Source: a virus
IMG/VR virus record: IMGVR_UViG_3300020446_000036
Span: 1 to 35,408 of that record
Reading direction: 5' to 3' (one strand)
Length of the DNA: 35,408 nt
The notes under the pieces were generated by a model. It did not search any database. It saw nothing but the letters and a program-made list of their open reading frames with translations, and had not been told where the DNA came from. This document shows, in pieces, positions 5,740-30,420 of the stretch; position 1 is the first letter of the stretch; each line of letters begins with the position of its first letter. Both the position numbers and the translations under genes were made by a program.

Positions 5740-5813
5740 AATACCACTCTTTCCAATACAATGTGTGATTCGGTTGGTATTTGAACATTGTCAATCTTTT
5801 CATCCTCTTTCAT
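5736..5813 (-). CDS. Possible 25-residue peptide gene
   Basis: An ATG at 5813 opens a 25-residue frame (MKEDEKIDNVQIPTESHIVL then ERVVL) whose TGA overlaps the next ATG as ATGA. It fills exactly the only gap between the helicase-like ATPase gene and the DUF4177-like gene. The overlap pattern fits neighbouring genes, but the length is too small to be sure; it could be a translational-coupling leader. Confidence 0.3.
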   Translation of the reverse strand: MKEDEKIDNVQIPTESHIVLERVVL

Positions 5814-5818
5814 GGTAA

Positions 5819-7264
5819 TCATTCCCCTACCCACTTTATGTATGCCTTCTTCGCTATCCTCTTTTCCTCAAAGTTGTCTGATATCTTTTGGAACCACTTG
5901 TAGATAGTTGATTCTCCCTTCTTCGTGGTTGATCTAACCTTACCTATCAATATGGTCTTGTTGACGAACCCATCAGAATCAGGCTTGTTCAACTCGTCAT
6001 ACACCTGCTTGAAGATATTCACGTTTGCCTTCTCTTGAAGTCCCTTTCTCTCGACTCTAAGTGCAGTATCCAGCCACGATACTAGACTCTTGTAGCACTG
6101 CCTGATCAGTGATCCTGCCTGTGCCACGTTCCTTGAGTTCACTTGGAACCTCTTTGATTTGTCAGTAATACTAGGTGCTTCTGCGATTGCACATAGCATC
6201 GATATCCTGACCAAGTGGTTGTTCAACCTAGTTAAGAAGTTCGTTGCTATATCCATAACTTCAGCCCTACTGCTTTCCACATACTTACGCATACTCTCAT
6301 ACTCACGAAGCACTGCGTTATTGAAGTCATTGGAGAATGTCATTACCTTGAGTGGGTCATTACCTACATCGGTATATCTCTCCTTCAATGTCTCATGTAC
6401 CTTGGCAAAACCTTGAGCAAACCTCTCGATGGGTGCTTTGTTGTCTACTACCTTCCCATACTCGTTGATCACACTAGTGCGTATCTCATCTTGGATCGAT
6501 TGGGGAACCTCCCAAATGAATATCAGCATCCTTTGCATGATACCCTTCTCAGCAATAACCGATGTCAGTGCCTTTGGTATGTATGAGGTGGCGTAGACAG
6601 ACCGTTGACATCTGCATTCTAGGACAGTATCACCATCCTTGAGTTTCTTGGTGATGACCCAGTTCTCTCCCCAAAGAGTATTCATCAGTGTCATGAGATA
6701 CATAACCACATTCTCTTTGTGTTGTGATTGCTTGAATACACCCGAATACTCAAATTCGTCGTATACGATCAGTCCATCTCCTTCCAATGCACCCTTGATC
6801 TGCACATCGATGTATTCTCTCACTGGACCCTCACCGTTATCCACGATGACTTCCTCTTGCTTCATCGATCCTATCAGTGCTGCATCTGTTATCTCCTTGA
6901 CATCGAAGATGTCAAAGTAATGTCCTCTAGATTGTAGCAATTCAAACGTCTTCTTCGCTACAGGACCAAAGAAGTTGTACAACTCGGTCTTTCCCGAACC
7001 TGAAGTCTGCATCCAAAGGAAGGGTATTCTTGTGTCTTCCCTTCTCTTTCCACTTGGGATGCAAACCATGTCCTTAGACATCTGCCCTAACAACACGAAT
7101 GCTGACATCGCAGCAGGTACGTGGTTGTATTTCGACACATCAGTTGCACTTGCAGTATACTCCTTGATCAAGGCTGGCAAGTCCAACTTGTTGCTTACTT
7201 CTGTCTCCTGTTCTTCTTCTAAGAACCCATAGTAGAGTTCATCTTCATCATATCCATCTATCAT
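5819..7264 (-). CDS. Helicase-like P-loop ATPase (DUF3987-like), probable replication protein
   Basis: A 481-residue protein with Walker A TSGSGKT at about residues 87-93 and a Walker B-like strand GLIVYDEFE at 164-172. The C-terminal 80 residues include a segment (FVNKTILIGKVRSTTKKGES) that looks like a winged-helix region. The pattern resembles the DUF3987/primase-associated ATPases found beside archaeo-eukaryotic primases in mobile elements. The nearby primase gene supports a role as replicative helicase or helicase loader. No MCM helicase is visible in this window. I chose the ATG at 7264 because GGTGAT lies six bases before it; an ATG at 7270 overlaps the previous stop. Confidence 0.5.
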   Translation of the reverse strand: MIDGYDEDELYYGFLEEEQETEVSNKLDLPALIKEYTASATDVSKYNHVPAAMSAFVLLGQMSKDMVCIPSGKRREDTRIPFLWMQTSGSGKTELYNFFGPVAKKTFELLQSRGHYFDIFDVKEITDAALIGSMKQEEVIVDNGEGPVREYIDVQIKGALEGDGLIVYDEFEYSGVFKQSQHKENVVMYLMTLMNTLWGENWVITKKLKDGDTVLECRCQRSVYATSYIPKALTSVIAEKGIMQRMLIFIWEVPQSIQDEIRTSVINEYGKVVDNKAPIERFAQGFAKVHETLKERYTDVGNDPLKVMTFSNDFNNAVLREYESMRKYVESSRAEVMDIATNFLTRLNNHLVRISMLCAIAEAPSITDKSKRFQVNSRNVAQAGSLIRQCYKSLVSWLDTALRVERKGLQEKANVNIFKQVYDELNKPDSDGFVNKTILIGKVRSTTKKGESTIYKWFQKISDNFEEKRIAKKAYIKWVGE

Positions 7265-9434: not shown

Positions 9435-10300
9435 TACATCCAACTCTCTTCTTGTGCTTTCTCACATATTCCATAGAAACTACAGTTCTGACATGTCTTG
9501 AAGAAATACTTCGCATAGAAGTCATCCTTCTCATAGGATGCCAATAACTCAACTAGTCCCTTCAATACTGCTGTATGACTAGATGGTTTACATTCCTCGA
9601 CATATGTATAATTTGATGCGGGGTAGTACCAACCCCAATACTTCATCTCATACTCAGGGTTCAATCCATTCTGCTCAAGGACTTCGGGACTTGCACTATC
9701 AAAGAGTAGTTTGTAGAACGCCATCTCCTTCCTCATCATGGTTCTCTTGTAGTCCTTCCAAGGCCCGGTCTTCAACTCCATAGGGATGTAGAAACCATCT
9801 TCCTCAAAGATTCGATCAATGATACCCTGTATGTGGACCTTGTATGGTCTTGACAATTCGACCTTGGGATTCCAATCGGGTTGTATGACAATCTGTGCAT
9901 CGAGTATTACCTCATTACCCGGTGGTAGGAACTCATGTGTCTTACCCTCATTCCTAGCCTCGATGAATCTTTGTGTCGCATTCGTTGCCATAGTGTCATA
10001 CATATCAGAATAGTCGTCTATTGGAAACAGGCTCATGCAGTAGTTCTTCACCTCAGAGGGAGTCATCGTCTCCGCCTTCTTGACATCGAATGTATTGAAG
10101 AAGTCCTCTTGCGAGTTGTGTATTATACTACCCTTAGCCATAGCGGGACTTTGATCGATGGGCAATCTCATCGGATATTGAAAGAAATACCTAGCAGGAC
10201 ACCATTGAAAGGAACCGAATGAAGACTTCGTTATCTTCAGTATAGGTTGCGTCTCATCATCATAACTTGCAGGATTCCACTCATACGTATATTCTCTCAT
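9434..10300 (-). CDS. Cas4/RecB-like PD-(D/E)XK nuclease with Fe-S cluster cysteines
   Basis: A 288-residue protein with the Cas4-type layout. One cysteine (C34) lies near the N-terminus in FQWCPARYFF, H61 in KGSIIHNSQED, D162 in GIIDRIF and E175-x-K177 in MELKTG. Three clustered cysteines (C270, C273, C279) lie near the C-terminus in TCQNCSFYGIC. In Cas4 and AddB-type enzymes the four cysteines hold a 4Fe-4S cluster. No CRISPR array is visible, so this is probably a replication or recombination exonuclease. I used the ATG that overlaps the polymerase stop (TGATG); another ATG lies nine bases upstream. Confidence 0.8.
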   Translation of the reverse strand: MREYTYEWNPASYDDETQPILKITKSSFGSFQWCPARYFFQYPMRLPIDQSPAMAKGSIIHNSQEDFFNTFDVKKAETMTPSEVKNYCMSLFPIDDYSDMYDTMATNATQRFIEARNEGKTHEFLPPGNEVILDAQIVIQPDWNPKVELSRPYKVHIQGIIDRIFEEDGFYIPMELKTGPWKDYKRTMMRKEMAFYKLLFDSASPEVLEQNGLNPEYEMKYWGWYYPASNYTYVEECKPSSHTAVLKGLVELLASYEKDDFYAKYFFKTCQNCSFYGICEKAQEESWM

Positions 10301-11199
10301 CAAAACCACTCATCCAATGTCTTTTGTTTTCTGTCTTTTCTTATTCTTTGCTCATCCCAACCCATTGCTCTAAACACAGGGCTGGCCTTCTTCACTATAG
10401 ATTCTGCATAGTGACTCCAATCAGGAGTGAAGTTTGCGAAGTCTTCTATCCTAGGTGCTGAATAATACTCAGGCTTCACCACCACTTGTTTCGTAGGATG
10501 CACTAGGGAGTGTGGGTTGTTCCTTATCTTCAGATATAGATAGGAGTCATCGATGTGATCCTTGTTCAACTTGTTATGTAGAAGCACACCTATCACTCCC
10601 GAACCCACTGTTGGTTTCTTACCTGCTCCTTTCCATCCCTTTCCCGATTTCTTCACAGTCTGAAATGATGGTGACTCACAGCACAATGCCTTGGTGAGAA
10701 ACATGAGGCTAGATGTAGTATCGCAGTTATTGCATAGAACATGGAATCTTTCAGGTCTATACCTACTTCTCTTCAGCACCCTCTCAGTCTTTATCTTACC
10801 GAGTTTGGTCTTCTCGTATATCTCATTGAGATATTGAACTACCTCGTCCTCGGTCTTCTCATTCACCCACATGTTGAGTACGGTGATCTGAACCTCCTTG
10901 TCCAGTTGCGTTTCTGATACTCTCTTTGCAGTGAATCCAGTCATGACGAATTCCTCTTCATCGAGGAACTCCCCATCCTTCCAAGTGATCAAACCAGCAT
11001 TCCTGTTCTTGGTAGCACCCACACCTAGGGTTCTGAAATACTTCTCAAACTCCAAGGTGACGGGATGCTCATCAAGGCCCAACACATTAGGAAACTTGGA
11101 TCGAACATGATCGTTCAATGTGGATAGTACAGACTGTGCTTCCTCAACACTGTCCACTTGACAGTATATCGAATCTGTGTGTCCATATACCACTTCCAT
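10300..11199 (-). CDS. DNA polymerase B, C-terminal fragment (motif C, thumb, PIP box)
   Basis: A 299-residue protein that begins right at polymerase motif C (MEVVYGHTDSIY) and continues through the palm end and thumb region. The usual YGDTDS reads YGHTDS here: the first Asp is His, while the second, metal-binding Asp is kept. The protein ends QKTLDEWF, a good PCNA-interacting (PIP) box, which links it to the clamp encoded nearby. A cluster of cysteines around residues 155-174 (CNNCDTTSS, then CC) may be a zinc site. It has its own ribosome site, GGGAGGAAG, and its ATG overlaps the zinc-finger gene stop (TAATG). It presumably assembles with the 562-residue fragment encoded upstream. Confidence 0.85.
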   Translation of the reverse strand: MEVVYGHTDSIYCQVDSVEEAQSVLSTLNDHVRSKFPNVLGLDEHPVTLEFEKYFRTLGVGATKNRNAGLITWKDGEFLDEEEFVMTGFTAKRVSETQLDKEVQITVLNMWVNEKTEDEVVQYLNEIYEKTKLGKIKTERVLKRSRYRPERFHVLCNNCDTTSSLMFLTKALCCESPSFQTVKKSGKGWKGAGKKPTVGSGVIGVLLHNKLNKDHIDDSYLYLKIRNNPHSLVHPTKQVVVKPEYYSAPRIEDFANFTPDWSHYAESIVKKASPVFRAMGWDEQRIRKDRKQKTLDEWF

Positions 11200-11375
11200 T
11201 ATTCTTCCTCCCTGAATTGTCTAGCCCATTTCAACGGACTCATCATGAAGATGTAGTTGTTGAGCCAGTTCTGCACACAGAAGTTGCAGACGAAACCGCT
11301 CTTTGTGTCACAACCAGCAGCATAGTTGCTGCTCACATTACAGACATAGCATTCCTTGAATATTACTCCACTCAT
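11199..11375 (-). CDS. Small zinc-finger protein inserted between the two polymerase genes
   Basis: A 58-residue protein starting MSGVIFKECYVCN, with C9, C12, C22, C30 and C33 (CxxC ... CNFC), so a probable zinc ribbon or treble clef. Its ATG overlaps the stop of the N-terminal polymerase fragment (ATGA), and its stop overlaps the ATG of the C-terminal fragment (TAATG). The three genes are therefore translated as a chain. There is no HNH, GIY-YIG or LAGLIDADG motif and no intein splice residue, so it does not look like a homing element. It could be a polymerase accessory factor; its function is unknown. Confidence 0.6.
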   Translation of the reverse strand: MSGVIFKECYVCNVSSNYAAGCDTKSGFVCNFCVQNWLNNYIFMMSPLKWARQFREEE

Positions 11376-13060
11376 GATAACTGCCTCACTTTGAATGCTG
11401 CTTCACGAATGGCCTCCCTAGCACTAGCAGTAATACTTGCTGCCAAGTCAACATCAGCCCAACCGAACCCTTGGTATGCAATGATACCGTAGAAGGATGC
11501 CATCAATCTCTTGACTGCTAGTTGGTTGTTGTTCCACTTGGCATACTCCGACTTGTTTTCTGCCTTCTTCATGTTTCTCTTGTATTCATTACGTAGTTCC
11601 TTCAACTCCAATACTGCCCTAGGTAATAGTCCTAGTTCATCAGTCTTGTAGTATAGCATCTTGGTGTTCTCTACATCCGAGAAGTCCTTTGGTGTGAATA
11701 TGTTCACTGCAAACTCAGTCGGGTTATCGGATTTAGTCTCCCAAGATATGTTCCTCGCTATCATCATAGATGGGTATAGTCCAGCGAAGTCAAACGCTGC
11801 CACTCCTAGATGAAGACCGTTGGTTCCTGCTTCTAGCGGATCGTATACCATTGCCCCATCGTAGTCAACCCTTTCTCCCTTGGAGCCTGTGGGTGCTTTC
11901 CATGATGCGTTGCGCATGAAGTAGATACCACCCATGTGACTAGCATAGAAACACGCATCGAATGGTGCTTTCAGTAGTCTTTGTAGTGATATGATAGCCT
12001 CACTTGTGTAGTTTTCCTCATCTATTCTCCTAATTAGGTCAACGTCAATCAATGCATATCGCATGTAGGTGTGAGTATCCTCCAACCATGCTCTTGCGAA
12101 GAACTCGTTCTTGTCTGGAAACTTCTTACTGACTAGTTTCTTCTCGCCAAGCACTTCTGTTGAGATGTAGTCCAAGGAAAGCGATGGTAAACTGCCTCTT
12201 TGAGCATCGTTCCACTGTCTTTCAAACGCTAAATCTAAATTTAGGGTAATTCTTCCCTTGATTGGTTGTTCAATCGGAGAAAAAGTCTCTTTTCTAAAGG
12301 TAAATCCTTCTTTTGTTGGATAAAACCCTGTTATTTCTCCAACAGGAGACATAACTCTTGCATCTATCTTGTTTTTTATGCATCTTTCTAATAGTTTTGG
12401 TAAATCGAACTGATTTCCGAACCATGATATAAGCATATCGGGGTCATCATTGATGATATCTGACAAAAACGCACTAATCATGGTGCTTTCACTATCAAAT
12501 CTCCTTGTGATGACCCTCTTATCGTCAATGTTGTTTACAGAAACCATGTATTGTAGTTTCATCTCAGGAAACCACACATACTGATAGAAGCACTGCCTAT
12601 AATTGTCATAGACGACAATACAGGTGATGGAACCATTGTGTTCTCCACCTTGCTGCCACTCCATGTCCCAATACCACTTTCTGAATCGGTATTCAGGTAT
12701 CTCATCCATTTCATCGACTGCATATCTGTGGTGATGTGACACATCAGCCTCAAATGTAAGATGAAAAGCCTCCCTAGCATCACGCATGTGCTTTGGGTGC
12801 TTTGGCTCAAAGAATACCTTGGACAATGATGATCCTTGTAGGTCAACTGCTACATCATGCTCGTATGTGAAATCAAACTCAGTCTTCTTACCCCACTTGT
12901 TCGTAGTGGAGGATCTATCCTTCACAGCATCGTCCCTCCTGACATAGAAGTATGGTCTGAAATCATTGAATGATACAAACTTCTCATTTCTAATTGGTTC
13001 GTCTCCTTCTCCTTCTCGCCATCTTAAACAAACACCTTCATCTGTTGGTGCTATTATCAT
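11372..13060 (-). CDS. DNA polymerase B, N-terminal fragment (exonuclease, motifs A and B)
   Basis: A 562-residue protein with proofreading motifs ExoI (YWDMEW, D132/E134), ExoII (SWFGNQFDLP, N216/D219) and ExoIII (YALID, Y335/D339), then polymerase motif A DFAGLYPS at 424-431 and motif B KRLMASFYG at 517-525. It stops at ...FKVRQLS, just before the strand that would carry motif C. Motif C begins the gene 172 bases downstream, so the two products together equal one normal family B enzyme of about 860 residues. A GAGGTGAT ribosome site precedes the ATG, right after the PCNA gene. A split polymerase is also known from Methanothermobacter. Confidence 0.9.
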   Translation of the reverse strand: MIIAPTDEGVCLRWREGEGDEPIRNEKFVSFNDFRPYFYVRRDDAVKDRSSTTNKWGKKTEFDFTYEHDVAVDLQGSSLSKVFFEPKHPKHMRDAREAFHLTFEADVSHHHRYAVDEMDEIPEYRFRKWYWDMEWQQGGEHNGSITCIVVYDNYRQCFYQYVWFPEMKLQYMVSVNNIDDKRVITRRFDSESTMISAFLSDIINDDPDMLISWFGNQFDLPKLLERCIKNKIDARVMSPVGEITGFYPTKEGFTFRKETFSPIEQPIKGRITLNLDLAFERQWNDAQRGSLPSLSLDYISTEVLGEKKLVSKKFPDKNEFFARAWLEDTHTYMRYALIDVDLIRRIDEENYTSEAIISLQRLLKAPFDACFYASHMGGIYFMRNASWKAPTGSKGERVDYDGAMVYDPLEAGTNGLHLGVAAFDFAGLYPSMMIARNISWETKSDNPTEFAVNIFTPKDFSDVENTKMLYYKTDELGLLPRAVLELKELRNEYKRNMKKAENKSEYAKWNNNQLAVKRLMASFYGIIAYQGFGWADVDLAASITASAREAIREAAFKVRQLS

Positions 13061-19289: not shown

Positions 19290-19778
19290 TCACTTAGCAA
19301 AATACTCGTCTCGTAGATGCAAAGCCCAATCGTCTGCGTCGGGATTTATATGTTGCGCCTCTATCTTGTCGAGTTTAGGCCAATAGACATGTCTTGGGGA
19401 AACCCGGTTGGTTCCCTCCCTCATCGCATTGTCAACTGCATAGTCAGCAGCCTGTTGAACGAATGAGTCTATCATATCCCATAGATAGTAGTTCATCGAT
19501 CTTGAGATAGAGAACCTCTTTCCATGTGAATCTGAGTGTGACTTTATCGTATTTCTGAATGTCTTGGCGATGTCTATTTTATTCGCAGTCCTTCTCTTTG
19601 GCTTATCCACTGTCGGAGTCACCAACTGACCATTTGAATCCAAGTAAGGACAGGTATTCACAGGACGTTGTATCTCGTTCTTGAAACCAACATGCTGCAA
19701 AGTCGCTATCCCTTTCTCTATCGATACGCATCTGTATGGTATCTTCTTTACTAGTGAAATCATTCCAACTTCTATCAT
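19290..19778 (-). CDS. Histone-fold protein with an N-terminal extension
   Basis: A 162-residue protein. The first 60 residues or so have an unrecognised mixed composition. From about residue 66 it reads like an archaeal histone: an alpha1-like helix (KIDIAKTFRNTIKSHS), a loop FSISRS, a long alpha2 (MNYYLWDMIDSFVQQAADYA, continuing to about 120), then EGTNRVSPRHV, which aligns without gaps to the histone L2/alpha3 segment GRKTVTARDV. The conserved Asp of the RD clamp is His here. It would bind viral DNA as a dimer, possibly with the 70-residue protein encoded on the other side of the ligase gene. It starts with a TAATG overlap to the ligase. The fold is inferred by eye. Confidence 0.5.
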   Translation of the reverse strand: MIEVGMISLVKKIPYRCVSIEKGIATLQHVGFKNEIQRPVNTCPYLDSNGQLVTPTVDKPKRRTANKIDIAKTFRNTIKSHSDSHGKRFSISRSMNYYLWDMIDSFVQQAADYAVDNAMREGTNRVSPRHVYWPKLDKIEAQHINPDADDWALHLRDEYFAK

Positions 19779-21518: not shown

Positions 21519-21720
21519 AATTACCACTCATCATTCTGTTTAACGTCTCTACGACTTTTGTTGCTTCATCTTGGTTGAAGCGCACACCCTTCCTTGTGGG
21601 TGAACCATTCTCAAACCATCGAATGTCAACGATGGGGATGTTCCAATACTCACCAGTGAGAACAACTAGTTCCTTTGCTGGACCCCTAGGAATCCTAACG
21701 AGTATCTTTTCATTCTTCAT
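21469..21720 (-). CDS. PC4-like single-stranded DNA-binding protein
   Basis: An 83-residue protein. The segment GEYWNIPIVDIRWFENGSPT followed by RKGVRFNQDEATKVVETL resembles the PC4 fold: curved strands with an IRxF/Y stretch, a K/R-KG turn, then a helix with regularly spaced hydrophobics. PC4 proteins bind single-stranded DNA and act in transcription or replication. The tail (about 18 residues) is acidic. Start ATG at 21720 follows GGAGTGGATGGT. It overlaps the histone-like gene by about 50 bases. Pattern-based call. Confidence 0.45.
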   Translation of the reverse strand: MKNEKILVRIPRGPAKELVVLTGEYWNIPIVDIRWFENGSPTRKGVRFNQDEATKVVETLNRMMSGNYDFKQEDENSIEGKVE

Positions 21721-22126
21721 ACCATCCACTCCTGAAGTTATTCAATTCCTTGAAGGATCGGAAATACCTAGGTGATGCTAACTTGTCCAATCTGTTGACT
21801 ACCCAAACAACACCACCTAGGCTCGATACCTTCACAATTTCATACTCACCGTCTTCCACTTGAATAACTTCCTCAGTGGATATCTCAGGTGATAGACCAT
21901 ACTGCTTCGTCAACAACGTGCCTATCTTCCCCATATTCTCAGCAACATACTTCACAATCAGAGATCGTTGTATGGGAACCTTGGCATCGACAGTGACTTG
22001 GATAGAACCCTTCCACTTGCATACCCTACAACCCATCCCCTTCTTCTTCTCTTCCTTCTGACATATTGGGCATGGTATTTCTGCTGGCAATGGGGCAGGG
22101 AAGTTGATTGTGACTGCCCTTTCCAT
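21710..22126 (-). CDS. Zinc-ribbon protein (DnaJ-like knuckles)
   Basis: A 138-residue protein. C19-x2-C22 (CPIC) and C33-x2-C36 (CRVC, followed by KWKG) form a zinc ribbon like half of a DnaJ cysteine-rich region. The remainder is mixed alpha/beta with a basic C-terminus (LASPRYFRSFKELNNFRSGW). The ATG at 22126 comes two bases after the lipoprotein stop; an upstream in-frame ATG (22162) would overlap the lipoprotein gene. No known family could be named. Confidence 0.55.
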   Translation of the reverse strand: MERAVTINFPAPLPAEIPCPICQKEEKKKGMGCRVCKWKGSIQVTVDAKVPIQRSLIVKYVAENMGKIGTLLTKQYGLSPEISTEEVIQVEDGEYEIVKVSSLGGVVWVVNRLDKLASPRYFRSFKELNNFRSGWYEE

Positions 22127-22127
22127 G

Positions 22128-22559
22128 TTAGCAACTTCCGTCCCATAGCCTGTATCTAACAACGTAGTCGTATGTCATGTTCATGCTGAAGTCAGGGAAG
22201 TGCAGTATCGCACTACCAGTCGTTCCATATCCATCTGATATGTATAGACCGTTCTGATTCACATGTCCTGTCTTAGACTCGAATGTGGTATTGTCGAATA
22301 CCACTGTGTTGTTCTCAAACACGAAGGATGTGTGTGATGCTGTGTATGTGAAGTAGTCCAACTGGAACAACATCGTATCATTGCCTAAATCAACTATGGG
22401 CATGGTGCTGTTATTGTCCTGCATCCACGTCACTTCCTCATCCACCCTAACCCAATCAGGAGTAGGGCATTCGGAGAATACATCCTCCGGGTCGGGTATG
22501 GCCTCAGTGCATCCAGCCAACATCGTGCTTATCATCAATAGTGCGATTACCTTCTTCAT
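22128..22559 (-). CDS. Secreted lipoprotein with many N-glycosylation sequons
   Basis: A 143-residue protein with a classic lipoprotein signal: Lys-Lys start, hydrophobic core and lipobox LAGC (Cys17), MKKVIALLMISTMLAGC. The mature part has six N-x-S/T sequons (N49, N50, N60, N83, N90, N127), unusually many for its length, which fits surface glycosylation in archaea. Three cysteines including the lipid-bearing one, no enzyme motif. It would sit on the outer face of the host membrane. In known viruses such proteins may block superinfection or change the host surface, but this is inference. It overlaps the JAMM gene by ATGA. Confidence 0.75.
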   Translation of the reverse strand: MKKVIALLMISTMLAGCTEAIPDPEDVFSECPTPDWVRVDEEVTWMQDNNSTMPIVDLGNDTMLFQLDYFTYTASHTSFVFENNTVVFDNTTFESKTGHVNQNGLYISDGYGTTGSAILHFPDFSMNMTYDYVVRYRLWDGSC

Positions 22560-23071
22560 TCCTCTTCGCCTCCAAAGTCGAATAGAGTCGGAGAGACTCT
22601 CTGTGGGCTAACGTGACCAAACTGGTATTTAACGAATTTAGATGTGTTCGACTTCAAGTTGTATGAGAAATACTCATTGTCACCAACAACGATGGCATGT
22701 TCCATCATGGGCCTCCATGTGTTGATCGTCCTCCAATCAGTCCCACTGAAGAAAGCCTGACCGAATGGATGTGTGTGTATCCATACCTTGATCGGCAGTT
22801 TCATCCCGAATATCGACTTGTCATCTTGATTGAACCATACAAGTCCGGGGTTTCCCTCACTACAGTACATATTGTCGTTGGAGTCAATCACAACTTGAAT
22901 CTCATTACCATTACATACGTCATGAGTCACTGCCCATATCAAATCCAAGAAACGCTCACATTCCTCATTTACAGGCCAAAACGATATGTCCTCTACATTG
23001 TCGGCATAGTGAGACTTTATCTCATCAAACTTCGCATTGTCATACACTGCCACTGCTTCATCCGATAACAT
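22556..23071 (-). CDS. JAMM/MPN metalloprotease (deubiquitinase-like)
   Basis: A 171-residue protein with the JAMM zinc motif complete in spacing: H99-T-H101-P, seven residues, S109-x-x-D112 (in WIHTHPFGQAFFSGTD). The expected upstream catalytic Glu is probably in the NEIQVVID strand or just before it. Family members cleave isopeptide bonds of ubiquitin-like proteins or trim their C-termini; phage tail and sulfur-carrier systems also use them. The virus encodes a Gly-Gly-ending ubiquitin-like protein and an E1-like enzyme, so these are likely partners. Start ATG 23071 follows a perfect GGAGGTG; an ATG further upstream overlaps the neighbouring gene. Confidence 0.8.
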   Translation of the reverse strand: MLSDEAVAVYDNAKFDEIKSHYADNVEDISFWPVNEECERFLDLIWAVTHDVCNGNEIQVVIDSNDNMYCSEGNPGLVWFNQDDKSIFGMKLPIKVWIHTHPFGQAFFSGTDWRTINTWRPMMEHAIVVGDNEYFSYNLKSNTSKFVKYQFGHVSPQRVSPTLFDFGGEEE

Positions 23072-23441
23072 ACAACACACCTCCAACAAGTATGACACCA
23101 ACAACGAGCATCAGCAGCATCCTGCTTCTGTTCCTGTACACTGTCACTCTTCTGTTTACCATGCCGACGTTCTTGGTTAGTTTGTCCACTGTCTTTCGTA
23201 TCTCTTCGTCAACCTTGGTCAAATCACCAATCATCTCGTCCTGCACTGTGTCAGTGACGCTTTGGTATGTTTCGTTCTCTATCAATTCCAATCCTAGTGC
23301 GTTGACCTTGTACTTCAAGGAACCAACGGTTCTCTTGTATCCATTTTGGAAGAATTGCTCTTGTATTCTAACAAGGCTATACCCATCCTCAATGCAGTTC
23401 TTCAACAACACTACTTCTGTTTCTGTCCATTTCTTACTCAT
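23058..23441 (-). CDS. Myb/SANT-like protein with a C-terminal membrane anchor
   Basis: A 127-residue protein. Residues 3-50 (KKWTETEVVLLKNCIEDGYS, on to TVGSLKYKVNALGL) have a Myb/SANT-like or GcrA-like helix-turn-helix pattern starting with the typical W-T-E-x-E. The middle is a heptad-like helix. The last 20 residues (MLLMLVVGVILVGGVLYVIG) form a clear membrane helix. A DNA-binding head on a membrane anchor could hold the viral genome or a promoter at the membrane. The ribosome site AGGAGGTT is very good. It overlaps the JAMM gene by 14 bases. Confidence 0.6.
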   Translation of the reverse strand: MSKKWTETEVVLLKNCIEDGYSLVRIQEQFFQNGYKRTVGSLKYKVNALGLELIENETYQSVTDTVQDEMIGDLTKVDEEIRKTVDKLTKNVGMVNRRVTVYRNRSRMLLMLVVGVILVGGVLYVIG

Positions 23442-23596
23442 CTTTTCAACCTCCTATAGTTATAGGTGAATTCTTTTGCTAGAGCCATTGCTCTTTGTTC
23501 ATCAATTATACTGTTATTTCTTGTGATATATTCGGCTATCACATGTATGGGTTCTCCACCCTCTATCATCATCATAATATCGCTCATCCTACTCAT
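23438..23596 (-). CDS. Small protein (52 residues) between the E1-like and Myb-like genes
   Basis: The frame starts MSRMSDIMMMIEGGEPIHVI and ends TYNYRRLKR. Its ATG overlaps the E1-like stop (ATGA), and its stop overlaps the next ATG (ATGA), so it is locked into the operon. The composition is helical. A short GEPIHVIAEYI stretch recalls a helix-turn-helix, but too little sequence exists to assign it. Confidence 0.6.
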   Translation of the reverse strand: MSRMSDIMMMIEGGEPIHVIAEYITRNNSIIDEQRAMALAKEFTYNYRRLKR

Positions 23597-24156
23597 ATGC
23601 TCACCGTCACGAAATCCGATACTTCCTCATCATTGAATCTCTTCTGAATCCATTGTGAGCCCATTGCTGCGATTACTATATTCATCTGATTCACCTGTTC
23701 TGCGGAACCATCCCACTCCTGTGCTTGGCATGAGTAGGAACCATCATCACCAACTAATAGCATATCAAGTTTGTTTTTGTCGATGTCTGATGAGATCAAT
23801 ACGGCATTTCTTCCCTGCGCTCTCAAGTCCAGCCACTGCTTAGGTTTCTTTGAATTGTATAGCATTCTTCTCGTACTCATGTTATCAACGCAACAAACAA
23901 CAAGATCATACTTGTCAAGATCCCTATCCATAACAACATCAAATGGTTGTGCCTTGATGTTGAACTGTGTCTGCATGGACCTCGCCTTTGTATCTCCAAT
24001 GTGAGATACGTTGTAGTTCTGATACAGAATGTTCTTTCTTTCTACCTTATCTGAGTCAAAAACCGTTAGGTCGTATATCTTCAGTTTATTCAGGAATTGC
24101 ACAAGGAAACTCCCTATGCCACCTGCTCCTATTATCAATATCTTTCTTTTACTCAT
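23593..24156 (-). CDS. E1/ThiF/MoeB-like adenylating enzyme
   Basis: A 187-residue protein with the nucleotide loop GAGGIGS at 10-16, then FDSDKVERKNILYQ at 33-46 (matching D.D.VE.SNL.RQ) with HIGDTKA at 52-58, and CCVDNMSTRR at 88-97 (the C.DN...R motif). This is the adenylation domain of enzymes that activate the C-terminal Gly-Gly of ubiquitin-like proteins. It is shorter than MoeB (about 250 residues) and lacks the usual paired CxxC zinc ligands; only C88, C89 and C143 exist as possible catalytic cysteines. The partner is inferred to be the Gly-Gly protein encoded at 28731-28928. Start ATG 24156 follows GAGTGAT. Confidence 0.8.
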   Translation of the reverse strand: MSKRKILIIGAGGIGSFLVQFLNKLKIYDLTVFDSDKVERKNILYQNYNVSHIGDTKARSMQTQFNIKAQPFDVVMDRDLDKYDLVVCCVDNMSTRRMLYNSKKPKQWLDLRAQGRNAVLISSDIDKNKLDMLLVGDDGSYSCQAQEWDGSAEQVNQMNIVIAAMGSQWIQKRFNDEEVSDFVTVSI

Positions 24157-24161
24157 TTTAA

Positions 24162-24374
24162 TCACTCATCCTCTTCTCTCTTTAGTTCATCCAAGAGATG
24201 CTGTGGCGCACCTGCTTCAATCAATCTTACTTTTAGTACCTCATAGAGCCAACAGTCGTCACAACAAACTCCCTCTTTGACAGGTTCCGCATCATGACCC
24301 CACCAATGGGGATTATCATCGTCTATTCGCATTGTTTTTTCACATATTACACATATTTCCAATCTTACCATCAT
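24162..24374 (-). CDS. Small zinc-ribbon protein (70 residues)
   Basis: The 70-residue product has CVIC at 8-11 and CCDDC at 37-41 around a His/Trp-rich stretch (NPHWWGHDAEP), a likely zinc ribbon. The C-terminal third is a charged helix. Its ATG overlaps the TFB stop (ATGATGG, two possible starts). Co-transcribed with TFB and the E1-like gene. No named family. Confidence 0.55.
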   Translation of the reverse strand: MMVRLEICVICEKTMRIDDDNPHWWGHDAEPVKEGVCCDDCWLYEVLKVRLIEAGAPQHLLDELKREEDE

Positions 24375-25264
24375 ATTATCAACTTCCTCTTAAATTGTAA
24401 GTAGTATTCAGGAACTACTTGTTTCCTCTTCATTCCTAGGCATCTCAGTATCCTAGCAGCAGCAGTTCTGATCGTCACTTCTGAGACACCTTGGGTTCGC
24501 TGCAACTGCCTTTGTGTCACACTTCTCTCATTGAATCTCGCAGTTAACCAAATACCTGCGAGAACCTGTGTCGTGGTAAATGCCTCATCTGAGAACATTT
24601 CCTTGATACCGTAGAGTATCTCAATGCACTCACTCATCAAGTAAGTGTCATCGTCGTAGGAGCCGAGTGTGTCAGTAAGTATCCTTTGTACCTCGCTCTC
24701 TATGTTTATCTGCCTAGGTCTTATGTTGTCTCCCAATGCCCTCATCGTCTTCTTCAGTAGTTTGAAGAAGGGCTTGAACTCCTGTCCATTCGTCTTGCAG
24801 AATTGCCTGACTGTCACACTGACATTGTGTTTCCTGAGTGTGGCATATGCAACAGCAGCACCAAACATTTCTGCATTTGACGCATGATACTGAAACCGTC
24901 TCTCCCTCAAGAAGTTGGAGATGTATGCTGCATCCTCCTTCATCGTCTGTGATGGGTTGTAGTAGGATAATGCCATGTGGATGATCGATCTATACTTGTC
25001 ACTTTTCTTATTGTATCTCTCGACTCTCTTCAATGCCCTTATTCTCTTGTCACCATACTGACCTGCTCCTATGACTGAGCCTAAGTCCTTGGTTCTACTG
25101 ACTGACTCCCTACCTATCATGCCCATGTCTCTTCCGGGCATCATCATACTACTGGTTTCCTCTAAGGGAGTCAGCATGATGACAAGACCACAATTGTCAC
25201 AGGTGTGTTCACCTAACCTCTCATCATAGGTAGACTCACTATTACCACATTCAATGCATTTCAT
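24371..25264 (-). CDS. tfb: Transcription factor B (TFIIB-like)
   Basis: A 297-residue protein with an N-terminal zinc ribbon (C3, C6, C22, C25 in CIEC and CDNC) and a linker containing LGSVIG, as in archaeal TFB B-reader/linker regions. Two cyclin-like repeats follow, the first around 85-185 and the second around 205-290, ending with a helix-turn-helix (VTQRQLQRTQGVSEVTIRTA) that would read the BRE. It would direct host RNA polymerase to viral promoters. It overlaps the upstream gene by 14 bases. Start ATG 25264 is preferred; GTG 25273 is possible. Confidence 0.9.
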   Translation of the reverse strand: MKCIECGNSESTYDERLGEHTCDNCGLVIMLTPLEETSSMMMPGRDMGMIGRESVSRTKDLGSVIGAGQYGDKRIRALKRVERYNKKSDKYRSIIHMALSYYNPSQTMKEDAAYISNFLRERRFQYHASNAEMFGAAVAYATLRKHNVSVTVRQFCKTNGQEFKPFFKLLKKTMRALGDNIRPRQINIESEVQRILTDTLGSYDDDTYLMSECIEILYGIKEMFSDEAFTTTQVLAGIWLTARFNERSVTQRQLQRTQGVSEVTIRTAAARILRCLGMKRKQVVPEYYLQFKRKLII

Positions 25265-26519
25265 TTTCTTCACTTATCTCATTATTACATCTATCTATCC
25301 ATTCTTTGTCTACTCTTATCACCTTTGGTGGAAGATTGCTTCTTAGAGTATGGATCGCATTCACTGCTGCTTGGTCATTCAACAGGGCCAACGCCCTAGA
25401 TACTATCTGATCACCTATGCTAGAGTTCCCATGTATGTTGTCTATGCATATGGGTCCATTCAACTTGTATTGACCCATCGCAACTTTGTGGGTTCTGTGT
25501 GGTGAAACACCGCTTATGGAATATACCTCTACGCTTTGATGCTTGTTGGAAGTGCGTCGTTGTGGTATGATCACCCAATCAGCGAGTTGACCATTCACCA
25601 ACATACTCTTCCTAGGGAGATGATCATTCTCATCCTCCTTGTGCATGAACACCTTCAACCTAGTGGGGAACTTGGCCTCCATCTCAGTAAGGAGTTTCTG
25701 CGCCCTTTCCTCTACGATCTTCTGTGTTCTATTCTGATCTAGGAAATGATGCATTACTCGCTCAGTCGATGCTGACATGTTCTTGTAGGTATCCATGTCT
25801 AGAGTTCTGATTAGATTCATAGGAGAAAGATTCCACTTCTTCGATCTGTTGTTCATGTCCTTGTGATATTTTAGGAAGGAGTCTAGATCCTTGTTCTTTA
25901 TTGGAATCCATAGAGAGTCTGATATCTCCAATGCACATTCCTTATCACTGATTCTCTTTGTGTTGAGTCTGACCTTCACTCTCTCACCATCCCTGAAATA
26001 TCGATATGGTGTCCTGTTCTCCAAGGCATGAATAACCCTAGGTGGAACAGTGAGAAGCATGTTGACATACTCCTTCATGGTCACGCTACTCTTCTCAAAG
26101 CATAGTCTATTGATGATCTTGGACATTATGTGTTCTGCGTTTTCCTTGGAAACTGCCACTCCATTCAGTCTGACACTTGATTTATTGTAGAGAAGATGTA
26201 CGGTAAACATACCATCCTCCATCTTCCTAGATATGATGACATTCTGATTGTCGTCATTGTATATTACCGAGAACTTGTTCAACCTAGACCTTGGAAAGAA
26301 CCAAACTCTCATCGCTTGTCTGATATTCTCAAGTACAGGGTCATCTGAACTGGACATATTCGTATGTCCCACTTTCATCATGTGTTCGCCTAGATGGTTG
26401 ACAGTATTCCTTCTCCTTCTATGAGAAGAGAGTGGAGGAACATACCTGACGAGCATCGATGTCTTGTAGTATTCATCCCTATTGTCATTCGGCGTTGGTA
26501 TTAGCACTTTGATTTTCAT
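25251..26519 (-). CDS. Unknown 422-residue basic protein
   Basis: I do not recognise this protein. It starts MKIKVLIPTPNDNRDEYYKT and has an unusually basic composition with several Arg/Lys patches (SSHRRRRN near residue 32). The middle is mixed strands and helices (LLYNKSSVRLNGVAVSKENA), and the C-terminal part has IIPQRRTSNKHQSVEVYSI and a helix-rich end. Position before TFB and after the reductase suggests an information-processing role, but no motif confirms it. The ribosome site AGGTGAT before the ATG at 26519 is excellent. Confidence 0.6.
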   Translation of the reverse strand: MKIKVLIPTPNDNRDEYYKTSMLVRYVPPLSSHRRRRNTVNHLGEHMMKVGHTNMSSSDDPVLENIRQAMRVWFFPRSRLNKFSVIYNDDNQNVIISRKMEDGMFTVHLLYNKSSVRLNGVAVSKENAEHIMSKIINRLCFEKSSVTMKEYVNMLLTVPPRVIHALENRTPYRYFRDGERVKVRLNTKRISDKECALEISDSLWIPIKNKDLDSFLKYHKDMNNRSKKWNLSPMNLIRTLDMDTYKNMSASTERVMHHFLDQNRTQKIVEERAQKLLTEMEAKFPTRLKVFMHKEDENDHLPRKSMLVNGQLADWVIIPQRRTSNKHQSVEVYSISGVSPHRTHKVAMGQYKLNGPICIDNIHGNSSIGDQIVSRALALLNDQAAVNAIHTLRSNLPPKVIRVDKEWIDRCNNEISEENEMH

Positions 26520-26793
26520 TTATATCACCTAATTCATTTCTTATTTTATAGTCAAGCCATGCTTGTTTGTCAAACATATACTGTCTGAAATTATCCTTAA
26601 CATTAACGTCGTGGATATCATGAGAGTTTTTCCTATGATACACACTCTCTAACCTATTGTAGACATAGGTGCTAGAGACATAACCATTAAGAAAACTATC
26701 TTTCAGACGTTTCAGATCATAATCGAACTCTTCACTGAATATGTCGATTATCTCAATCATTTGTTTCTTGTCAAATCTTTTTTTATATTTCAC
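26485..26793 (-). CDS. Hypothetical helical protein
   Basis: A protein of about 102 residues if GTG at 26793 is used (a GGTGGAG site precedes it); an ATG at 26763 would give 92 residues. It is mostly helical and charged, with several aromatic residues (DIFSEEFDYDLKRLKDSF, YVYNRLESVYH), and ends in a polar tail. It overlaps the reductase end and the next gene. No family recognised. Confidence 0.5.
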   Translation of the reverse strand: MKYKKRFDKKQMIEIIDIFSEEFDYDLKRLKDSFLNGYVSSTYVYNRLESVYHRKNSHDIHDVNVKDNFRQYMFDKQAWLDYKIRNELGDINENQSANTNAE

Positions 26794-28654
26794 AGGCTCC
26801 ACCAGCGCAAGCAATCTCGCCGGAAAAATCTGTATTGTCATTCTCTTCAACTACCTCAGTAAAATTGACATCGGCTAGTAGTTGAAACATTCTGTTGTAA
26901 GTCTCTTCATCACATTCCTCAAACGGTGCTTGAGTGTAAGTGCCGCCACTGTAGGGCAACACAGCAAGACCGTTGTAGTAGTGTCTGTTCTTCCACATCC
27001 ACTCTCCTGCTCTTTCCCACTCATCCTCTCGGACTGATATTGTGGCAGATACATTGTGACCGTTTACTCCCCTGTTGTGTCCTTGTTTGACCCAACGAAG
27101 TGAGAAGTCCTTCACCCTCTCTAGCATCTCCAAGGCAGACTCATGCCTTGTGATGATGTTTCCTGAAGGTGCTTTCTGTGGTATGGACAGTACAGCATCA
27201 GTAGCCTTCAGCGTATCATCCTCAACCAAGTCAGGAACCGTCTCTTTCAAGTAGGCGTATATTGGTTCTGTCTTGTTCATCCTGACTCTTCTAATGTAAT
27301 GAGGGGCATACCAAGCATGAATACCTGAAGATGTTCCCAATACACAAGAAGCAGTCCCTGATGGTTTGATGCAAGTAATCCTAGCGGATTGTCTGACACC
27401 AATGATATCAGCGACTCTCTTGTTCTCTTCCTTGGCAATGTATGCTGCATGTTCAACATCCAAGTCAGATACCTTGTTGCTGGCAATACCAGTCATAGAC
27501 ACACCTAGCAGGGAATCCCTCTCGGTTGTTCTCTTCCATACTTCCCTCAGATAGTGGAAGTCAGTGTATGCTGCTTGTAGTGTTCCTAGGAACGTAGCAG
27601 CCTTCACTCTCTCTTCCAAGTCCTCTTGGGACTCCACATCAGAAACGTTGCACTCAGTTAGGTTGCAGAACTGATATGGTCGTAGTGCTATCTCACAACA
27701 TGGGTTGGTTCCCCAATCCTTGTCATGACTATGGTATATTCCGGGCTCTCCTGAGCCCGATTGAACTATTCTGTCCCATAGGTCGAAGAAATACTCCTTC
27801 TTGAGTTTGCTTCTTACCAATACAGCAGAATTGTTGGCTCTTGACCTTTGAGGGTTGTCTCTCCAAAACTCTCCTGACTTACATGTGATCATATCCATGT
27901 CATCTGCTGAGAATAGGCTAATCAAAGCAGCCCTCCTTATTCCACCTGCCAATACTGCATCAGCGATGTAGCATAGCATGTCATGGACTTCTAATGATGA
28001 CAATTGAGAACCGTTCTTCTTCTCCATGAGCATGTTCTCTATCTTTACGATACATTCCCTCAATGGTGCTGGTCCCGGCGCACGACCACCTGATGTTTTC
28101 AACAAAGCACCCTTTGGTCGTATATCCCTGTAATCGAATACTGGTGTTGATGTTCTCTTACCAGTATAAGTCTCGAATAGTATCTTAACAGCGTCAGCCC
28201 ATCCCTCTATCGAGTCATTTACGAGTATTCTTCTCTTTCTCTCAGGATTGGGTTGTATAATCTCAGGTAGTTGCTCTATGTGGTGGTATTGTACCGAATA
28301 ACCGACACCTGTGCCACCTAATAGTAAGAACATTGCTTCTGAGAAGCATTCTATCGCATTGATTGGCATATAAGCACAATTGTATATCCTGTTTGGCGAT
28401 AGTTCGATTGGTTTTCCAGCAAATTGCATGGATCGCATCGATGGTAGAACTTTCTTGGGTATTACATAGTTCTCATACACTTTTATTATATCATCAACGA
28501 AGTCCTGTCCGTGATGTTGGAATTTATCAACGTGCATGGTAAGGTTTCTGTAGCAAACCTCTTCCCAAGATTCTCTTCTCTTTTCTGCTGGTATGTATTT
28601 TGCGTATTTCGTGTAAACGTTAAAGTCTGATAGTAGTTTTTGGTCTAATTTCAT
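26783..28654 (-). CDS. nrdJ: Class II (adenosylcobalamin-dependent) ribonucleotide reductase
   Basis: A 623-residue protein. YNCAYMP holds a redox cysteine (C93), TNPCCEIALRPYQFCNLTEC holds the radical-site cysteine and the partner redox cysteine, KPSGTASCVLGTSSGIH is the conserved phosphate-loop region, and the C-terminus CAGGACEI provides the tail cysteine pair C616/C621 at the spacing of the Lactobacillus monomeric enzyme. No small subunit is needed; it reduces ribonucleotides using vitamin B12. It supplies dNTPs for viral replication. The start is ATG 28654, after AGGAGAGAT; the frame is open 48 bases upstream into the hairpin region, which I reject. Confidence 0.88.
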   Translation of the reverse strand: MKLDQKLLSDFNVYTKYAKYIPAEKRRESWEEVCYRNLTMHVDKFQHHGQDFVDDIIKVYENYVIPKKVLPSMRSMQFAGKPIELSPNRIYNCAYMPINAIECFSEAMFLLLGGTGVGYSVQYHHIEQLPEIIQPNPERKRRILVNDSIEGWADAVKILFETYTGKRTSTPVFDYRDIRPKGALLKTSGGRAPGPAPLRECIVKIENMLMEKKNGSQLSSLEVHDMLCYIADAVLAGGIRRAALISLFSADDMDMITCKSGEFWRDNPQRSRANNSAVLVRSKLKKEYFFDLWDRIVQSGSGEPGIYHSHDKDWGTNPCCEIALRPYQFCNLTECNVSDVESQEDLEERVKAATFLGTLQAAYTDFHYLREVWKRTTERDSLLGVSMTGIASNKVSDLDVEHAAYIAKEENKRVADIIGVRQSARITCIKPSGTASCVLGTSSGIHAWYAPHYIRRVRMNKTEPIYAYLKETVPDLVEDDTLKATDAVLSIPQKAPSGNIITRHESALEMLERVKDFSLRWVKQGHNRGVNGHNVSATISVREDEWERAGEWMWKNRHYYNGLAVLPYSGGTYTQAPFEECDEETYNRMFQLLADVNFTEVVEENDNTDFSGEIACAGGACEI

Positions 28655-28687
28655 AGTTATCTCTCCTAATAGTAGTTTTTTGAAGGA

Positions 28688-28721
28688 GGGAGAGCAAGGC
28701 ACTCTCCCCCCTTCGAGGGGG
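28688..28721 (-). ncRNA. Paired hairpins in the leader between the Ubl and reductase genes
   Basis: Two GC-rich inverted repeats overlap by two bases: GGGAGAG/CTCTCCC (stem 28688-28694 with 28702-28708) and a 6-bp stem 28707-28712 with 28716-28721 around a 3-base loop. They lie between the Gly-Gly protein stop and the reductase ATG. No T run follows on the minus strand, so an RNA-processing, transcript-stabilising or reductase-control structure is as likely as a terminator. Confidence 0.5.
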
Positions 28722-28730
28722 TTTATCCTC

Positions 28731-28928
28731 TCAACCGCCTATGATGGCAGGTGCGAGTGTTATGTTATCCACGGAAGTCCAATCGACTTGGCTGATGGTT
28801 TCCCTGCTTGTCAGTTCTCCATCTATGAATACCCAATGGGTAGGATGCTCATTGATCTGCTCAATGGCCTCAGTCATTGTCACTTCTAGGTCTGTGTGTC
28901 CAGTTTCATTCATTATCACTAATTGCAT
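28731..28928 (-). CDS. Ubiquitin-like / sulfur-carrier-like protein ending in Gly-Gly
   Basis: A 65-residue protein, the size of ThiS. It starts MQLVIMNETG (a first strand like that of ubiquitin, MQIFVKT), then a second strand HTDLEVT, a helix MTEAIEQINEH, a strand THWVFIDGEL and a last strand VDNITLAPAIIGG. The ending D-x-I-x-L-x-P-A-x-x-GG is the ThiS/MoaD/SAMP pattern, with Gly-Gly directly before the stop. A strong GGAGG lies eight bases before the ATG, fixing the start. It could be conjugated to proteins or carry sulfur, activated by the E1-like enzyme encoded 4.6 kb downstream. Sequence pattern is clear; function is inferred. Confidence 0.7.
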   Translation of the reverse strand: MQLVIMNETGHTDLEVTMTEAIEQINEHPTHWVFIDGELTSRETISQVDWTSVDNITLAPAIIGG

Positions 28929-29277: not shown

Positions 29278-30420
29278 TCATTCACTCCTATTTTTCATTT
29301 CTTCAATTAACCTAGAGGCTTCGTACTTGGTCAACCCGTCCGTGTCTCTTCCATAGCCTAATGCCTTTAGGTAGTTTCGCTGTTTCTCCGTTGCCGGAGT
29401 TTCATCCGAGGCCCTTGTCAATATCTTGTGTAATGTCGATGCTTGTGCATCGGACATCATACCGTCATTCGACAGCCTCTTCTTCATGTCACTTAGGAAG
29501 TTCCTCTCCCAAGCGTTGATTCCATCTTCCTCACTAAACACACGGAAACCATAGTTATCACATGCGTATGCAAACTTGGATTCCTTCGTCTCGTTCTTCA
29601 TCCTCTCGGATAACTCGATCTGTCTCCTTCTAGCATCTAGAAGATTGTCCTCGGTTTCTAACTCTTGGACATGTCTCTCCTTGAATGCGAAGAACAGTGT
29701 CAGGTCATTCATCAGTGAATCATTCGGGTATCCCCTAGACGATTGTTGGTTCCTAGTGTTGTCAGGGTGATTCCATCGCCATACGATAGAAGCCATCTCA
29801 TAATCAGAAGTACCATATGTACCCGATCCTCTTTTTCGCAACTTGGTGATGCTTCTCTTCATCCTCAACTCATTGTCCCAATACTTCTTACCAGTATCCC
29901 TGACGTTGACTCTAAGATCAAGGTCTTTGACTGCGTTGAACATATCAGTGAATGCCTTGCCATGTCTAGCCCACCAAGCATCCTTCTTCATTGACTCGAC
30001 CCTAACGCTGACCCATTGCTCGATCATCTCATCAGTGATCTCATCATCCTTGAGGTTCTTCTCATTGGCAATGGCCTTCATGATCATGTAAGAGTTGATG
30101 TGGTCGGAACCAACACACTCGATGTTTCCATTCTCAGTGTTCTCTATCTCAAAGTGATATACGATATGATGACCACATAGACAGTAGTTGGGATGTAGTA
30201 GTGCGAACTTAGGCGCACTTGAGCCATCGCCCCAATACACATCACCAGTGGCCCTCCACTCAAGTTTGGCCTCATCATAGTTATCCGCTACAGATAACTC
30301 AACTATCCTCTTCATGAGTTTCCTATCCCAATGGCCCTTTCCTAGTTCCCTCTTTGGGCTCCATTCTTGTCTCTCCATTGTCAATTCAATTGCTTCTCTC
30401 GGTATCCAAGAACTATCCAT
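29278..30420 (-). CDS. Protein with a Cys/His cluster and a C-terminal T-x-K-Q...LTKxEAS helical module
   Basis: A 380-residue protein. Around residues 79-108 it has CLCGHHIVYHFEIENTENGN followed by VGSDHI, a pattern (C-x-CGH-x-I-x-Y-x-F ... VGS) that I recall from phage and bacterial proteins of unknown function and that may bind zinc. The last 40 residues (ATEKQRNYLKALGYGRDTDG followed by LTKYEASRLIEEM) form the two-helix T-x-K-Q..YL..L...LTK.EAS motif found at the ends of various DNA-related phage proteins. The middle is helical and basic. TGATG overlap with the upstream gene; GGTGATT precedes the ATG. Confidence 0.55.
   Translation of the reverse strand: MDSSWIPREAIELTMERQEWSPKRELGKGHWDRKLMKRIVELSVADNYDEAKLEWRATGDVYWGDGSSAPKFALLHPNYCLCGHHIVYHFEIENTENGNIECVGSDHINSYMIMKAIANEKNLKDDEITDEMIEQWVSVRVESMKKDAWWARHGKAFTDMFNAVKDLDLRVNVRDTGKKYWDNELRMKRSITKLRKRGSGTYGTSDYEMASIVWRWNHPDNTRNQQSSRGYPNDSLMNDLTLFFAFKERHVQELETEDNLLDARRRQIELSERMKNETKESKFAYACDNYGFRVFSEEDGINAWERNFLSDMKKRLSNDGMMSDAQASTLHKILTRASDETPATEKQRNYLKALGYGRDTDGLTKYEASRLIEEMKNRSE

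Follow-up and report, generated by a model that had tools for sequence, protein, structure and literature searches.

Introduction

It is well known that viruses can take over or disable ubiquitin-like pathways, and gene sets that combine a ubiquitin-like protein (Ubl), an E1-like activating enzyme and a JAMM metalloprotease are already known in cells and on plasmids. We describe here such a three-gene set in a magrovirus, a member of a widespread family of viruses that infect marine archaea, represented by the IMG/VR record IMGVR_UViG_3300020446_000036; the stretch of DNA that was analysed (hereafter, the window) is this entire record of 35,408 bp. Among the described systems, the PRTRC system is a cassette of plasmids and integrative and conjugative elements that includes a ThiF E1, a Ubl (protein C), an E2-like protein (protein B) and a JAMM protein (protein A). 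Archaea tag proteins with SAMPs without an E2, and JAMM enzymes reverse this tagging (PMC4443979), by which a transcription factor can be directed to proteasomal breakdown (PMC4895103). In siderophore and sulfur-assimilation clusters, operons encode a ThiS/MoaD-like protein together with an E1 and a JAB protein, and in lambda-like phages a Ubl occurs together with a JAB protein (PMC1779556). The bacterial anti-phage systems Bil, Bub and CBASS (Cap2/Cap3) contain related E1 and JAMM domains, and in one of them the JAMM-type protease BilC matures the Ubl BilA (PMC11354881). Finally, the Borg elements of Methanoperedens, which are archaeal mobile genomes, carry JAMM de-SAMPylases and, in one Borg, a SAMP (PMC12660748).

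The evidence presented below suggests that magroviruses probably run a protein-tagging (or sulfur-carrying) pathway of their own. No account of all three genes forming a core module in a family of archaeal viruses was found in the literature searched, which did not extend to the main magrovirus genome papers, and a magrovirus survey and the profiles of the International Committee on Taxonomy of Viruses make no mention of ubiquitin, ThiF or JAB. As far as this literature shows, a complete Ubl-E1-JAMM set as a viral core module is new.

Results

The three genes had been proposed, in an initial annotation made from the letters of the window, to encode the basic parts of an archaeal-type ubiquitin-like pathway. 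All three proved to be real genes, on the minus strand and at the positions first assigned to them, with homologues in IMG/VR (tblastn-confirmed relatives: 380 for the E1 and 164 for the Ubl, 80 of each being kept for locus analysis). The genes and their main landmarks are as follows.

28731..28928, minus strand: Ubl, 65 aa, predicted beta-grasp fold, lysine-free, ending PAIIGG-stop (AlphaFold2 model, PDB structure matches, homologues)
28734..28739, minus strand: Gly-Gly codons of the Ubl, with the stop codon immediately next and no tail here
23593..24156, minus strand: E1-like (ThiF/MoeB fold) adenylating enzyme, 187 aa (Pfam ThiF, 1.1e-15)
24022..24024, minus strand: Tyr45 of the E1, at the place of MoeB Arg73, the ATP gamma-phosphate arginine (E. 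coli MoeB alignment)
23728..23730, minus strand: Cys143 of the E1, invariant (57/57) and aligned with MoeB Cys187; candidate thioester cysteine
22556..23071, minus strand: JAMM/MPN+ metalloprotease, 171 aa (AlphaFold2 model, structural match)
22736..22777, minus strand: JAMM motif HTHP-x6-SxxD, with His99, His101, Ser109 and Asp112 (65-row alignment)
22901-22903, minus strand: Glu57 of the JAMM protein, the metal-binding/catalytic glutamate upstream of the HTHP motif (invariant in the 65-row alignment)

Of the 162 loci collected first, 134 contained the whole trio, with the genes on one strand and their order (Ubl, E1, JAMM) unvarying. An unbiased sample of 20 long records, picked by their DNA polymerase B and not by the trio and searched whole, contained the JAMM gene in all 20, the E1 in 19 and the Ubl in 18. 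In a 30,939-bp record of this sample the JAMM gene lies at 29,930-30,406 on the minus strand, such that E1 and Ubl would fall past the contig end, and in a 54,191-bp record the E1 begins at 3,467, such that the Ubl would fall before the contig start. The same was true of the 206 pooled loci, in which each missing member of the trio would fall outside the available sequence; a second search of whole records recovered the E1 in the doubtful loci, except for two that have the Ubl at or near a contig end. Co-occurrence in other magroviruses, which the initial annotation had named as a check, was thus without exception wherever the sequence suffices, no relative keeping E1 and JAMM without the Gly-Gly protein. 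Ubl and E1 are separated by 2.3-7.0 kb with other genes between them. Of 195 loci, 18 have E1 and JAMM genes that share 4 bases or 1 base or are separated by 9 bases. Across magroviruses, at least among relatives whose polymerase is about 59% or more identical, the three genes belong to the core.

In cellular genomes, the only matches were three magrovirus-like contigs in bacterial metagenome-assembled genomes; these genomes are named Altibacter and Maricaulis, and the contigs are probably mis-binned. Neither the Ubl nor the JAMM protein matched anything in a phage collection, though haloarchaeal tailed viruses with a related polymerase were included in it. One contig of 184,733 bp, IMGVR_UViG_3300021958_000021, holds two full trios about 90 kb apart whose sequences differ, and it therefore looks like two joined virus genomes.

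Structure prediction bore out the earlier description of the 65-residue protein as beta-grasp-like. The AlphaFold2 model, built with 66 homologues, was confident (predicted local distance difference test score, pLDDT, 93.4; predicted template modelling score 0.80) and has the order beta-beta-alpha-beta-beta-alpha-beta followed by a flexible C-terminal tail (residues 2-7 and 10-15 form strands, 18-27 a helix, 31-35 and 38-40 two more strands, 42-47 a short helix and 55-60 the last strand). Its top PDB matches by Foldseek were ubiquitin, NEDD8, SUMO and archaeal ubiquitin (best E 3.5e-3, probability 0.99). The VIA-align list was headed by MoaD (Z 5.9, root-mean-square deviation (rmsd) 3.1, 62 residues) and also contained FUBI, ISG15, a bacterial Ubl, TtuB and UFM1, with a few non-ubiquitin beta-grasp proteins (protein L) scoring nearly as high; the Z values are modest because the chain has only 65 residues. 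At the level of sequence, a Pfam and NCBIfam scan gave nothing reliable and no Ubl family for the window protein, its profile matched no PDB sequence, and its homologues matched no PRTRC or Prok_Ub model, while the SAMP1 model matched 2 of 66 Ubls at 0.033, which is below a SAMP-level sequence match. We conclude that this protein is confidently predicted to be a ubiquitin-type beta-grasp protein. An identity as the Lon inhibitor PinA was considered and rejected: 25 of the 66 members match PinA weakly and partially (best 1.4e-4, residues 7-52), and a single rescan of ten members returned one match, at 12 bits against a cut-off of 27.

Lysine is absent from residue 3 onward in 59 of 66 Ubls. The E1 and JAMM proteins contain about 6% lysine, and of 63-residue stretches taken from the remaining window proteins just 2% are free of it. 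This near lack of lysine fits a modifier that avoids tagging itself, and it counts as one observation rather than 59 because the Ubls share common descent.

The Gly-Gly pair was kept in all 93 distinct Ubl homologues, 0-2 residues from the C-terminus (GGG variants aside). Its position directly at the stop codon, as first described, holds for the window virus but not for most relatives, which carry one or two variable residues after it (73 of 83 distinct Ubl cores). These tails (Y, Q, C, SL, NL, NQ, SY, CY, AF and others) fall into 32 classes, counting the lack of a tail as one, and on a tree of 105 E1s their length changed at least 16 times and their sequence at least 58 times; the glycines never changed. 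Such fixed glycines followed by freely changing tails suggest that the Ubl is a precursor trimmed after Gly-Gly, which would tie the JAMM protein to the Ubl as the encoded maturation protease, a role beyond what the initial annotation had proposed. A similar maturation by a JAMM-type protease has been suggested for tail protein I of phages (PMC1779556). In the window virus and some relatives the Ubl is encoded in mature form, without a tail, yet the JAMM gene is kept, which points to a second role for the protease in removing the Ubl from targets.

The 171-aa protein is a JAMM metalloprotease with the full set of catalytic residues and a predicted MPN fold. Prok-JAB matched the window protein at 0.0015, below the Pfam cut-off, and matched 53 of 65 homologues (best 4.5e-5). 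The AlphaFold2 model (pLDDT 84.8) was most similar to P. furiosus JAMM1 in complex with SAMP2 (Z 8.6, rmsd 3.5, 109 residues); further VIA matches included RadC, AMSH, Cap3 and Rpn11, and all those listed were JAMM/MPN or RadC proteins. Glu57, His99, His101, Ser109 and Asp112 were invariant in the 65 aligned homologues, and the motif was intact in the open reading frames (ORFs) of the pooled loci. Both the protease and its motif thus stand as first annotated, except that the spacing given as x7 is in fact HxHP-x6-SxxD, equal to the canonical HxH-x10-D. PRTRC_A matched three members weakly. WD40 repeats ranked first when the JAMM profile was compared with PDB sequences, ahead of the true JAMM matches AMSH and Rpn11, and were dismissed as a chance likeness of a short stretch (PFGxAYFSGTDxxTVxxW). 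The EEE found at every JAMM C-terminus is most likely not a protein motif; it probably reflects the site at which ribosomes bind for the gene that follows (GAGGAATGA overlap in the window).

For the E1-like protein, the proposed ThiF/MoeB-type adenylating domain was recovered by Pfam ThiF at 1.1e-15 (57.8 bits against a cut-off of 28.1). Its best solved relatives, by profile against the PDB, were UBA5 (6.6e-10), Cap2, UBA3 (the NEDD8 E1), UBA4 and MoeB. Among the curated NCBI families, PRTRC_ThiF matched all 57 E1 members and gave the lowest best E-value (9e-20), the window E1 scoring 47 bits against a curated cut-off of 144.75; the UbaA model matched the viral E1s more weakly than the PRTRC and ThiF models did, and the longest matches in plasmids carry a PRTRC ThiF annotation. 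The nucleotide-binding GxGGIG is invariant, and MoeB Asp62, Asn70, Gln74, Lys86 and Asp130 each have an invariant counterpart in the viral proteins, in which Asp34, Asn42, Gln46, Lys57, Asp91, Cys143 and the glycine loop are kept in 57/57. The zinc cysteines of MoeB are missing from the viral E1s in the E. coli MoeB alignment, and the viral proteins contain no rhodanese domain. The viral protein is a member of the E1 superfamily that probably functions in the manner of an E1, although it cannot be called a proven canonical one.

The trio is located in the replication/transcription half of the genome, with the following genes around it.

24371..25273, minus strand: TFIIB-like transcription factor (TFB), upstream of the E1 (TFIIB zinc-binding, 6.7e-7; 151 of 162 loci)
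26783..28660, minus strand: B12-dependent ribonucleotide reductase, between Ubl and E1 (Pfam Ribonuc_red_lgC and RNR-II insertion domain; 95 of 162 loci)
21710..22162, minus strand: Cys4 zinc-type protein (CPxC...CxxC), downstream of the JAMM gene (133 of 162 loci, four Cys conserved)

The Cys4 protein matches no family and may be a partner in the pathway; when it and the other conserved neighbours (422-aa and 114-aa proteins) were examined as E2- or E3-like enzymes, no assignment resulted. The start of a small lipoprotein-like ORF at 22128-22559 (signal peptide with LAGC; in 48 loci) overlaps the JAMM stop codon. Elsewhere in the window, the C-terminal half of a 162-aa protein (19290-19778), conserved in part of the relatives, resembles a histone fold (KRFSISRSMNYYLWDMIDSFVQQAADYAVDNA...). 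The DNA polymerase B (10300-13060) is seemingly split into a 562-aa ORF (11372-13060) and a 299-aa ORF (10300-11199), with a 58-aa Cys-rich ORF between the two.

Discussion

The magrovirus trio shares features with each of the described systems and coincides with none of them. It resembles PRTRC in its E1, which is closest to that system by profile and by a full-length plasmid match, and WLDL and SxSC motifs are common to both; unlike PRTRC, no protein B (in a search without a working control), ParB or other PRTRC protein was seen in the viruses, the viral Ubl is unmatched by PRTRC models, and a tyrosine stands where the PRTRC E1 keeps an arginine. With the archaeal SAMP/UbaA/HvJAMM pathway it shares a Gly-Gly Ubl, a single E1 and a JAMM protein nearest in structure to P. 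furiosus JAMM1:SAMP2. That pathway works without an E2, and no E2 was found in the viruses with the one model tried, whose control gave no match. The viral E1 is shorter than UbaA and lacks the N-terminal arginine segment and the zinc cysteines, and most viral Ubls are tailed precursors. The sulfur operons have the same three parts, together with sulfur enzymes or a rhodanese-bearing E1, none of which was found in 12 long magrovirus records. The bacterial anti-phage systems serve to defend the host and include an E2, whereas the magrovirus genes belong to the viral core and no E2 turned up in the search with that single model. In Borgs, the E1 is reported from the host genome and the JAMM genes are multicopy and diversifying (PMC12660748).

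The crAss-like Bacteroides phage crAss001 (Crassvirales) offers a further parallel. Within 4265-6663, its gp77, a Prok-JAB protein (HSH-x10-D), lies directly beside gp76, a ThiF E1 annotated as thiamine biosynthesis, which is about 25-33% identical to the viral E1 and also lacks the arginine, having a Gly at the position of MoeB Arg73. The crAss001 proteins are larger, however, and a Gly-Gly Ubl is not established there; gp79 (2253-2930) starts with a stretch resembling a beta-grasp Ubl, and this may be a second phage Ubl system. In virus Rctr197k, from a methane-oxidising enrichment, a short ThiF-like E1 (6004-6627) is 33.6% identical to the magrovirus E1 over half its length and also has no equivalent of MoeB Arg73; no Ubl or JAMM protein was recognised adjacent to it.

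On balance, we consider it fairly probable that the three genes form one virus-encoded, E2-less ubiquitin-like protein-tagging pathway. The three folds, the invariant catalytic residues, the core conservation and the precursor tails on which this reading draws come from sequence and structure prediction. In this pathway, the Ubl would be made as a precursor in most relatives and already mature in the window virus, and the JAMM protease would cut after Gly-Gly, exposing the glycine. The E1 would then adenylate the exposed glycine with ATP and probably hold the Ubl as a thioester on Cys143, from which the activated Ubl would be transferred to lysine residues on proteins of the virus or the host without an E2, in the way known for archaeal SAMPs; the JAMM protease would take it off these targets again. 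The most likely purpose, and the weakest step in this scheme, would be to redirect replication or transcription proteins of the host or the virus at an early stage, of which the place of the trio in the replication/transcription module, beside the viral TFB, gives a hint only. We regard as evenly poised the fuller version of this model, in which an autonomous E2-less system with one JAMM for both maturation and deconjugation, and an E1 with an altered ATP site, is an essential core module that retargets such proteins.

Several observations weigh against this model. Adenylation, conjugation and target of the viral trio remain predicted. The N-terminal segment that bears Arg14 in MoeB is absent in 57/57 viral E1s, and the position of MoeB Arg73 is Tyr in 55 of the 57, with one Asn and one Thr. 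As these arginines of MoeB/UBA1 contact the ATP phosphate (PMC12355090), loss of both leaves the viral E1 with an altered ATP site, and its adenylation activity is not assured. Arg96, Arg97, Arg112 and Arg116 of the viral E1, which are invariant or nearly so, are candidates to take the place of the two MoeB arginines. Several Ubls, including that of the window, need no trimming, so that maturation cannot be the sole role of the JAMM protease, and sulfur-carrier systems also use precisely a Ubl, an E1 and a JAMM protein (PMC1779556). No family match identified an E2, PF14460 being the only model tried and its control giving no match either. The ubiquitin-like pathway envisaged in the initial annotation is supported overall, with the amendment that its E1 is nearer to the ThiF of PRTRC plasmids than to UbaA and is without the two phosphate-binding arginines.

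The first alternative is that the Ubl is a sulfur carrier. The E1 would activate it, a sulfur source would make a C-terminal thiocarboxylate, and the JAMM protease would mature the carrier or free the product, with tRNA, a cofactor or a nucleotide as recipient, as in MoaD/ThiS-type and siderophore sulfur-transfer operons. The end of the Ubl, PAI(V/I)GG, resembles MoaD/ThiS, Pfam ThiS matches six Ubl members weakly (best 0.0045), and MoaD is the best VIA match with TtuB close to it. The carriers QbsE and HcyS have short tails after GG that are removed by a JAMM protein. Cellular operons of a ThiS/MoaD-like protein, an E1 and a JAB protein are, moreover, sulfur-transfer systems (PMC1779556). However, PAPS reductase (PF01507), ATP_bind_3 (PF01171; TtuA/NcsA/TilS) and rhodanese (PF00581) were absent from 12 long magrovirus records in a search whose controls matched in 13-14 of 14 genomes, the viral E1 is without a rhodanese domain, the window contains no tRNA gene, and a carrier would not need the loss of lysine. 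A host enzyme could still accept the sulfur. We judge a sulfur carrier to be unlikely, and the tRNA thiolation or sulfur transfer that had been offered as one option is weakened; it is because PAPS reductase, a TtuA/NcsA-type ATPase and rhodanese were not found that we favour protein tagging over it, though without proof.

A second alternative is a counter-defence kit, in which the JAMM protease would strip host Ubl tags from viral proteins while the Ubl and a catalytically weak E1 would serve as decoys for, or compete with, a tagging defence of the host based on SAMP/UbaA. The missing equivalents of MoeB Arg14 and Arg73 and the structural closeness of the JAMM protein to a SAMP-cleaving enzyme would suit such a role; Borg elements have many JAMM de-SAMPylases that are proposed to oppose host tagging (PMC12660748), and bacteria use Ubl tagging against phages, according to work cited in that paper. 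The E1 active-site residues and glycine loop kept in 57/57 would nevertheless be unusual for a dead decoy, and strict conservation across members suits a house pathway better than an arms-race gene, which makes this alternative improbable. That the three genes are unrelated, the beta-grasp protein serving some other purpose and the ThiF and JAMM proteins being orphans, is very improbable: the distance and intervening genes between Ubl and E1, the lack of a Pfam Ubl family for the window protein and the weak PinA matches would agree with it, but the trio co-occurs without counterexample, the GG is invariant before freely changing tails, E1 and JAMM genes overlap, and PinA recurred in just one of the ten members rescanned singly.

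As these core genes belong to one of the most abundant groups of ocean viruses, a protein-tagging pathway encoded by them would likely play a part in almost all infections of marine group II archaea. The system is very small (three proteins of 65, 187 and 171 residues), with more than 90 natural variants already sampled, and would allow the E2-less step, the role of the missing E1 arginines and the link between tail and protease to be tested directly. Since PRTRC proteins of plasmids are the closest to its E1, and a related pair of E1 and JAMM genes occurs in crAss-like phages, the trio is also relevant to the question of how plasmids, viruses and cells exchange Ubl systems.

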